Source: Calditrichota bacterium | GTDB lineage: Bacteria > CLD3 | Length of the DNA: 64,000 nucleotides | Reading direction: 5' to 3' | NCBI GenBank assembly: GCA_008501735.1 | Contig: QQUF01000044.1 | Location: 124,001 to 188,000 of the forward strand | Shown: positions 58,998 to 64,000 of the stretch, in pieces | Numbering within the stretch: position 1 is the stretch's first letter | How the letters are laid out: each line of letters begins with the position of its first letter | Position numbers and translations under genes: made by a program | Notes under the pieces: generated by a model | The model's database searches: none | Told to the model about the DNA's origin: nothing | What the model saw: the letters and a program-made list of their open reading frames with translations, nothing else

Positions 58998-59071
58998 TGT
59001 AGAGACGCAAAATTTTGCGTCTCTACAAATTTACATTTTGCCTCTCTTTTATAAAATTTTGCCTCTCTACA
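58998..59071. repeat. Palindromic repeat with two decayed half-copies; bidirectional terminator
   Basis: TGTAGAGACGCAAAA and its exact complement TTTTGCGTCTCTACA form a perfect 30-base palindrome (58998-59027). Two related half-copies, ATTTTGCCTCTCT (59034-59046) and AATTTTGCCTCTCTACA (59055-59071), follow. The last supplies the stop codon of panC. Similar GTAGAGACGC palindromes are widespread in related genomes. Confidence 0.8.
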
Positions 59072-59912
59072 ATTTTATAATTTTATTGTCAATCAACCTC
59101 GTTTTACCAATGAAAACGGCTAAGGCAATTAAAATCTCACCTTTGAGAAAATCAATTTTCTCCAAACTTTCAGAACTTACAATCTCGGCGTAATCAATTC
59201 TGGCAGTTTGTTTTTCTAAAATTAAATCAGTCATTTTTGAAATTACTAATTCCGAATTTCTTTCTCCGTCAAAAATCATCTTTTCCGCTAAGCCCAAACT
59301 TTCCGAAAGCACCAAAGCATCTTTCCGCTCTACTTCACTTAAGTATTTGTTCCTCGAACTCAACGCTAAACCATCTTTCTCACGGGAAATCTCACCTACT
59401 AAAATCTCAATATCAAAATTCAAATCTTGAACCATTTTTTTGATAATTAAAACTTGTTGAGCATCTTTTTGCCCAAAAACTGCGATGTGAGGTTTGACAG
59501 TGTTAAAAAGTTTTGAGACAACAGTTGTAACTCCGCGAAAATGATTTGGTCTTGAATTTCCACAAAGAAAATCTGAAAGCGAACCATTTTGAACGTAAGT
59601 CAAATGATTTTCTGAATAAAATTCTTCTTTTGTTGGTGCAAAAAGAACGTCAACTCCTTTAGCTTCTAACAAACTTTTATCTCTCTCAAAATCACGAGGA
59701 TAACTGTCAAAATCTTCGTTTGGTCCAAATTGAGTTGGGTTTACAAAAATGCTCACGACAACAAAGGTTGAGTTATTTTGTGCAATTTCGACCAAAGAAA
59801 GATGTCCTTCGTGCAGAAAACCCATTGTCGGCACGAAGGAAATTTTTTCATCTTTTGCTCTGAGAGAATTTGCAAATGATTGCATTTCAGAGACATTTTT
59901 AATAATTCGCAT
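59067..59912 (-). CDS. panC: Pantothenate synthetase
   Basis: 281 residues. The nucleotidyl-transferase signature is PTMGFLHEGHLSL (about 29-41), followed by NPTQFGPNEDFDSYPR, FGQKDAQQ and REKDGLALSSRN. It joins pantoate and beta-alanine using ATP to make pantothenate for coenzyme A. The ATG shares one base with the stop of the Sec-thioredoxin gene (TAATG), so the two are translationally coupled. The C-terminal stop lies inside a repeat half-copy. Confidence 0.95.
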   Translation of the reverse strand: MRIIKNVSEMQSFANSLRAKDEKISFVPTMGFLHEGHLSLVEIAQNNSTFVVVSIFVNPTQFGPNEDFDSYPRDFERDKSLLEAKGVDVLFAPTKEEFYSENHLTYVQNGSLSDFLCGNSRPNHFRGVTTVVSKLFNTVKPHIAVFGQKDAQQVLIIKKMVQDLNFDIEILVGEISREKDGLALSSRNKYLSEVERKDALVLSESLGLAEKMIFDGERNSELVISKMTDLILEKQTARIDYAEIVSSESLEKIDFLKGEILIALAVFIGKTRLIDNKIIKL

Positions 59913-60937
59913 TACTTATTTGCAGTTTGTGCTTTCTTAAATTTTTCAAGTTGTTCTTTGTAGTAGCTATCTTCTGGGTCTTTATCAATTGCCATTTGAA
60001 TTGACTCAATTGCTTCTTTATTTTTTCCCATTCGGAAATAAACTTCTGCAAGTGTGTCAACAATTTGTGGTGACTTTTCGCTCACTTTTACGGCAACAAT
60101 TGCAGCTTCCAAAGCTTTTTCTAAGTGCATTTCATTTTCTGCAGAAAACCAAGCAAAAGCATTTAAAGCATTCGCATTTCGTGGGTTTTTCTCAACTACT
60201 TTCCAGTAAGTTTTGTAGGCTTTTTCTAATTCCTTTTTCTTTTCAAAGTAACCTGCGAGTTTCATTCCTGCACGTATTCCGAGTTCAGTTTCACCAAATT
60301 CATTAGCAAATTTACTAACAGATTCTGTTTTGTCTTCTTTCAAATCGAACATTGCAAGTTCATAAGAAGCAGTAGCTTTTTGTTCATCATTTTTGCTTGT
60401 TTCGACAACTTGTGAAAAATACTCTTTAGCGTTTTCGGAATCGCCTCTATCTGTGTATTTTTCAGCAATTTTGAACATCAAGTCAACATCATTCGGGCTG
60501 TCTTCAAGTCTTGTCAAATAGTTTGAAAGATAAGTGCTTCCCGTTCTGAATCCTTCGAGTGAGACCAAAAATTTTTCAGGTTTGTTTGCACCAACAATTC
60601 TATCAAGTTCTTCTCCGTCTGGTTTTAAAAGCAAAATTGTCGGATAACCAACGATTTTGTATTTTTCCATAATTGCAGGACCTTCACCTTTTTCACCATC
60701 AATTTTTAAATTGATAAAATTCTCTGAAGTGAAATTCCCAACTTCTTCATCCGTATAGACTGACCTGTCTAAAAACTTACAAGGTCCTCACCAAGAAGCG
60801 TGAACTGAAAGCATTAACGGTTTGTTTTCTTTTTTTGAAATCTCCAAGGCTTCGGAGACATTTGTTTTGAGGAATTCAATTCCTGCAAAAAGCGGACTTG
60901 CTAAAATAAGCAAGAAGAGAGTACTTCTGAAAAGCAT
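59912..60937 (-). CDS. Exported selenocysteine thioredoxin-TPR protein (WUGPC)
   Basis: 341 residues if the TGA at 60790-60788 is read as selenocysteine. The ATG at 60937 has AGAGG ahead and encodes a signal peptide (MLFRSTLFLLILASPLFA). Residue 50 is the TGA in SVHASW-U-GPCKFLDRSVY, exactly where thioredoxins have the first active-site Cys (WCGPC). The thioredoxin fold continues normally (INLKIDGEKGEG, KYKIVGYPTILLLKPDGEEL with the cis-Pro). Residues 150-335 form about five TPR repeats. A stem-loop after the TGA fits a bacterial SECIS. Start-stop overlap with panC. A reading that stops at the TGA, or starts internally at 60670, would lose the active site and is unlikely. Confidence 0.85.
60756..60771 (-). 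promoter_or_regulatory. Bacterial SECIS-like stem-loop
   Basis: On the minus strand, 16 bases after the TGA, TAGAC and GTCTA pair around the loop AGGTCA. The G at loop position two and the UGA-to-loop distance of about 22 bases fit the bacterial SECIS pattern. The loop resembles the E. coli fdhF loop AGGUCU. Confidence 0.7.
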
Positions 60938-61001
60938 TTTTACCTCTTTAGTTTATTGTAAATGTTAAGATTAGAAATTAGTAAACAATTTGAATTTTTT
61001 A

Positions 61002-63267: not shown

Positions 63268-64000
63268 ATGTTTAGAAAAGATAAATACAGACTTACACAA
63301 ACTGTAAAATGTGCCGGTTGAGCTTCCAAACTTAGTCCAACGGAGTTGAGACAGGCACTTTCAGGGATTGAATTCGCGACCAACCCTAACCTTCTCGTCG
63401 GAACAAAAACTGCTGACGACGCAGGAGTTTACAAAATAAGCGAAGAAATCGCCTTAATCCAAACGGTTGACTTCTTCACACCAATTGTTGACGACCCTTT
63501 TGTCTTCGGACAGATTGCTGCGGCGAATTCTTTGAGCGATGTTTACGCAATGGGAGGACTGCCTCTAACCGCTTTAAATATTGTTTGTTTCCCAAAAGAC
63601 GACTTGCCACTGGAAGCACTTAAATTGATTCTCGAAGGTGGAAACGAAAGAGTAAAAAAGGCAAAAGCAGTCGTTGCCGGTGGACATTCAGTTGAAGACA
63701 AAGAACTAAAATTCGGTCTTTCAATCACAGGACAAGTTCACCCGAAAAAAATAAAAACTAACGCAGGTGCAAAAGTAGGACACAAACTTCTTCTGACCAA
63801 AAAATTAGGAACTGGAATTTTAGCAACGGCAATAAAAAGAGGTAAAGCCAAGGATTCGACGATTGACGAAATCGTTGCTTCAATGATTGAACTTAGCGAA
63901 CCTGCTGCAAAAGCAATCCAGAAATTTAGCGATTCAATTTCAGCTTGCACTGACATCACAGGTTTTGGATTTCTCGGACACAGTTACGAAATGGCAACAG
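63268..64000 (+). CDS. selD: Selenide, water dikinase containing selenocysteine (runs off window)
   Basis: At least 244 residues, cut by the window edge. The ATG at 63268 opens MFRKDKYRLTQTVKCAG, and codon 18 is TGA (63319-63321) in KCAG-U-ASKLSPTELRQAL. This is the position of the catalytic Cys or Sec in SelD, with the essential Lys three residues on. DDAGVYKISEEIALIQTVDF, SLSDVYAMGG, VVAGGHSVEDKE and CTDITGFGFLGH are the expected ATP-binding and later motifs. It makes selenophosphate from selenide and ATP. A weak AACTT/GAGTT stem around AGTCCAACG (63329-63347) follows the TGA. Confidence 0.9.

Follow-up and report, generated by a model that had tools for sequence, protein, structure and literature searches.

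The window analysed here, a stretch of 64,000 nucleotides of contig QQUF01000044.1 from a Calditrichota bacterium, carries on its reverse strand a complete coding sequence (59912..60937) whose frame of 342 codons (341 amino acids) contains one in-frame TGA and is ended by a TAA at 59914-59912, according to the frame translation. A GAGG ribosome-binding site, read from the sequence, lies 5′ of the ATG on the same strand (60943..60946). The first 19 residues, MLFRSTLFLLILASPLFAG (60881..60937), are hydrophobic, end in LFAG and resemble a signal peptide as judged by eye, which supports the export signal proposed in the initial annotation of this DNA; this end of the protein is unstructured and of low confidence in the AlphaFold model. 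A thioredoxin (Trx) domain spans residues 26-128 (60554..60862, reverse strand), as indicated by matches to PF13899, PF13098 and PF00085 and by the structure model, and is followed by a C-terminal helical TPR array at residues 137-339 (59921..60529, reverse strand), to which Pfam TPR models, the helices of the model and fold matches all point. The Pfam matches themselves cover residues 26-124 for thioredoxin and 139-327 for the TPR models, TPR_20 and TPR_19 included. The AlphaFold model, for which Sec and Cys relatives of the protein served as input, showed a Trx fold and then helices from 137 to 339 (mean pLDDT 90), and a fold search with it returned TPR superhelices as the nearest folds of the TPR part. 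Both the Trx active site and the C-terminal TPR array of the initial annotation were thus borne out.

The TGA is codon 50 (60788..60790, reverse strand). It occupies the first active-site position of the Trx domain, in the context ...SVHASW-U-GPCKFLDRSV..., and, if read as selenocysteine (Sec), gives a W-U-G-P-C motif within the domain supported by Pfam and the model, with Cys53 (60779..60781, reverse strand) as the putative resolving cysteine.

The stop codon of the Trx-TPR gene overlaps by one base with the start codon of the gene that follows it, panC (pantoate-beta-alanine ligase; 59067..59912, reverse strand; PF02569, E 2.4e-104), in a TAATG sequence (59910..59914, reverse strand), making translational coupling possible. 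The panC coupling noted in the initial annotation comes down to this local one-base overlap, and the linkage is not conserved. An orthologue with 54% identity over the whole length was found in G001, a genome of the same family and another genus, where the neighbours, named by eye, are an adenylate cyclase and an M48 peptidase; panC stood beside none of the homologues examined, this orthologue included, and a conserved panC linkage was rejected. No functional link of the Trx-TPR protein to pantothenate synthesis was seen. On the opposite strand, selD starts 2.3 kb upstream of the Trx-TPR gene and continues beyond the end of the window (63268..64000); direct reading of its sequence showed an in-frame TGA at 63319-63321, in agreement with the Sec-containing selD noted before.

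Decoding of the in-frame TGA

The source genome is a draft of 4.14 Mb in 59 contigs, with an estimated completeness of 100%. selA, a full-length selB and selC, the last as a tRNA-Sec with a TCA anticodon (Sec-tRNA(UCA)), were all found in it; the initial annotation had named their absence as a refuting condition. The orthologue in G001 carries a TGA at the same codon, in the context TGGTGAGGACCTTGT, and the codon-50 column is Cys in 16/16 aligned full-length homologues, as expected from the U/C pairing proposed for residue 50. The possibility of a sequencing error, with TGT or TGC as the true codon, draws on the draft state of the genome (59 contigs) and on the Cys present in all more distant homologues; however, the identical TGA in the separate genome of another genus would require the same error twice, making a sequencing error very unlikely, to the point of being nearly negligible.

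If the TGA were instead a true stop, the gene would be a pseudogene, or would encode a short N-terminal peptide and a separate downstream protein. Elsewhere in the genome TGA does serve as a normal stop codon, and a downstream ATG at codon 90 would yield an ORF of 252 amino acids, but this ATG falls inside the Trx domain. Furthermore, the TGA is kept in an orthologue only 54% identical, and dN/dS between the two genes, calculated for the codons after the TGA (dS is not estimable for the first 49 codons), was ~0.25 over the remainder of the Trx domain and 0.38 over the TPR part, implying that the region beyond the TGA is under purifying selection. Given also the full Sec machinery of the genome, a true stop is highly improbable.

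Reassignment of TGA to a standard amino acid throughout the genome, for example to Trp or Gly (code 4 or 25), would likewise account for a TGA in frame. However, TGA terminates 75/601 long ORFs in the surveyed DNA of the source genome, indicating that the code is not reassigned and that TGA is otherwise an ordinary stop. In addition, just a handful of convincing TGA-interrupted genes occur in 1.57 Mb, all with the TGA at redox Cys positions, and a tRNA-Sec is present, so that reassignment is extremely improbable. Taken together, the lone in-frame TGA, the Sec machinery, the TGA of the orthologue and the Cys of the homologues confirm the selenoprotein assignment of the initial annotation, and recoding of codon 50 to selenocysteine is well supported by these sequence comparisons. 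Only two Sec-bearing members of the Trx-TPR type were found, the protein of the window and its G001 orthologue.

A hairpin register common to five selenoprotein genes

The bacterial SECIS proposed earlier corresponds to a hairpin, TAGAC-AGGTCA-GTCTA (60756..60771, reverse strand), whose loop starts 24 nt past the U of the UGA; the hairpin of the G001 orthologue is TAGAC-AGGTTA-GTCTA. A hairpin on its own carries little weight, since some 4-bp hairpin lies at an offset of 16-37 at 53% of random coding positions, and only a register shared between genes was used as evidence. TGA-interrupted coding frames were surveyed in 1.57 of the 4.14 Mb, taken as stretches, and four convincing selenoprotein genes besides the Trx-TPR gene were recovered, all chosen on their coding score and motif, irrespective of structure. 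These encode an AhpD-like selenoprotein with a CxxU motif (CHYU; C52:22240, forward strand), a Bcp-type peroxiredoxin with a TxxU motif (TPGU; C32:92161, reverse strand) and two paralogous UxxC redoxins with signal peptides (YN-U-SSC and YS-U-PSC; C32 near 117964 and C20 near 24090, both on the reverse strand).

The results showed in 5/5 of the selenoprotein genes, the AhpD-like and Bcp-type genes included, a loop of 6-7 nt that starts exactly 24 nt past the U of the UGA and is closed by a stem of 4 bp or more. Among 20,000 random sets of five positions, not one had four or more hairpins in one register, and the best had three. The 24-nt offset had been spotted before testing, and the random sets were each scored at their own best offset, which allows for this post hoc choice. 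The exact register common to the five genes is strong evidence for a SECIS and supports the earlier proposal. The hairpin of the Trx-TPR gene is short, at about -3.6 kcal/mol alone, and does not form in the minimum-free-energy fold of its 60-nt surroundings in the source genome; that of the AhpD-like gene has no predicted stability alone, and the loop in the two redoxin genes is able to close further. Conservation of the synonymous codons around the Trx-TPR hairpin was not significantly above that elsewhere (p = 0.18), and the hairpins downstream of the TGA of selD did not match the 24-nt register of the other five genes.

Both paralogous redoxins have long C-terminal extensions. The one at C32 near 117964 has a match to TIGR04183, a T9SS type A sorting domain, and its paralogue at C20 near 24090 has, by eye, a similar ending; a literature search for T9SS together with selenoproteins found nothing relevant. 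A further candidate from the survey, a gene at C32:229270 fused to the next gene across a TGA, was taken to end at an ordinary stop, the TGA lying at a non-Cys position.

Relatives and known Trx-TPR proteins

The initial annotation had described the architecture as unusual, a view that did not hold. CnoX/YbbN is a well-known cytosolic Trx-TPR protein, and exported Cys-containing Trx-TPR proteins are common in Bacteroidota. When 396 genomes were drawn evenly from this phylum, that of a Flavobacterium locus, 31/396 had a match to the Trx-TPR protein at E <= 1e-22; the best matches were proteins of 355-370 amino acids with full-length alignments, Cys and no internal stop. Representatives of ~355-370 amino acids (G176, G192, G284 and G319) share with the protein of the window, at 31-34% full-length identity, the signal-like N-terminus, the Trx W-C-x-x-C site, a DAEKGEG-type motif and a TPR-like C-terminus, but have Cys and no in-frame TGA where the target has Sec. 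The domain architecture is therefore not novel, and it is apparently the Sec form of an exported Trx-TPR protein that is new.

A sister family of the same phylum as the window has Trx proteins of ~420 amino acids with Cys and a divergent C-terminus in which Pfam calls no TPR. Several genomes of this sister family encode selA (G005, G006, G007 and G008; in G005 and G008 the gene lies at a contig end and is partial), and Cys is kept wherever a Trx-TPR-like protein was recovered from them (none in G005). In G001, selA has a second match, which is partial and lies at the end of a contig (C156:3789-4400).

In a comparison with the sister family and the Bacteroidota draw, the window's own family was the only one in which the Sec form was found. 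In the tree, the two Sec proteins clustered with the Bacteroidota Trx-TPR proteins and not with the sister family (support 86/87), a grouping that we regard as tentative in view of the long branches. The distribution of Cys and Sec forms suggests that the Sec form arose in this lineage by a Cys-to-Sec switch from an exported Trx-TPR reductase of the Bacteroidota type. A scan of related loci returned just Trx domains or unrelated DsbH-like proteins, all without TPR, and a TGA in G012 was rejected as a Sec candidate since a DsbD gene naturally ends there.

Among solved structures, the best sequence match of the Trx domain was 2kuc, a putative disulphide-isomerase domain from Bacteroides thetaiotaomicron (E 2.2e-21; TM 0.80 against the model of the target domain). 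2kuc is, however, a Cys form of which only the Trx domain is solved, whereas the target has Sec and a TPR part. Two protein models scored the target below threshold: TIGR01068 (TrxA equivalog) gave 42.2 bits against a cut-off of 96.8, and NF041199, a Trx7/PDZ selenoprotein, gave 16.8 bits against a cut-off of 300. NF041199 resembles the target in combining a Thioredoxin_7 domain with Sec but has CxxU and PDZ, in contrast to UxxC and TPR. The 2026 inventory of prokaryotic selenoproteins holds UxxC thioredoxins (PF00085), PF13098 thiol:disulfide interchange proteins and the Trx7/PDZ CxxU family (PMC13188914). Its thioredoxins and thiol:disulfide interchange proteins with UxxC carry Sec, like the target, at the first CxxC position of a Trx fold; in the target, the domain is part of an exported Trx-TPR protein. 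TPR was not found in the text of this inventory, and no entry for a Sec Trx-TPR protein was found in it; groundwater MAGs are named there as the source of additional, unvalidated candidates (PMC13188914), among which a Sec Trx-TPR protein may have been listed earlier.

Proposed function and its implications

We favour, with a probability of about 0.8, the reading that the gene encodes an exported Trx-TPR selenoprotein that arises by recoding of codon 50 and acts in the periplasm as a DsbD-fed reductase with client binding by the TPR array. SelB and Sec-tRNA(UCA) would read the UGA at codon 50, helped by the hairpin 24 nt downstream, and ribosomes would then translate the TPR part as well and terminate directly ahead of panC. 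The protein would cross the inner membrane via its Sec-type signal peptide. In the periplasm, Sec50 would attack a disulfide or sulfenic acid of a client and Cys53 would resolve the resulting intermediate, while the TPR superhelix may hold the client or a partner protein. Re-reduction is attributed to a DsbD-like protein encoded in the genome, where a DsbD_TM match was found in an open frame of 656 codons. An extracytoplasmic disulfide reductase fed by DsbD and binding its clients through the TPR array is the likely role.

CnoX/YbbN has an N-terminal Trx domain and C-terminal TPR, as in the target, but its chaperone partners are cytoplasmic, it has Cys or Ser and not Sec, and its overall fold arrangement is different. 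The protein might nevertheless be an extracytoplasmic seleno-chaperedoxin, in which the TPR clamp acts as a holdase for unfolded or oxidised clients, whose oxidised cysteines the Sec Trx domain protects, reduces or repairs. The fusion of a Trx domain to a C-terminal TPR array, the presence of E. coli YbbN (3qou) among the fold matches and the matches to the TPR_20 and TPR_19 models are all in keeping with such a role, and Caulobacter CnoX, in which holdase function occurs together with CXXC redox activity, provides a precedent (PMC8129009). However, the CnoX partners GroEL and DnaK are cytoplasmic and absent from the periplasm, the overlay of the whole model on YbbN (3qou) was poor (TM 0.27-0.32), and neither a CnoX model among the NCBIfam matches listed nor a YbbN chain among the sequence matches listed was found. 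A chaperedoxin, the main rival reading, is considered unlikely, and the signal-peptide-like N-terminus speaks against a cytoplasmic CnoX-like role in passing clients to GroEL. Should the chaperedoxin reading be true, it would place a periplasmic holdase-reductase in a lineage that has Sec also in other exported redox proteins, the two redoxins described above, one of them with a detected T9SS sorting tail.

An automated pipeline would probably cut the Trx-TPR gene off at codon 49 or place its start at codon 90, and the fixed 24-nt register of the hairpin can serve as a local rule in the search for further selenoproteins of the lineage. The protein adds a Sec form to a widespread and poorly characterised family of exported Trx-TPR proteins, allowing Sec and Cys homologues to be compared directly. 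Together with the other exported UxxC proteins of the genome, it points to the use of selenium outside the cytoplasm by this lineage.
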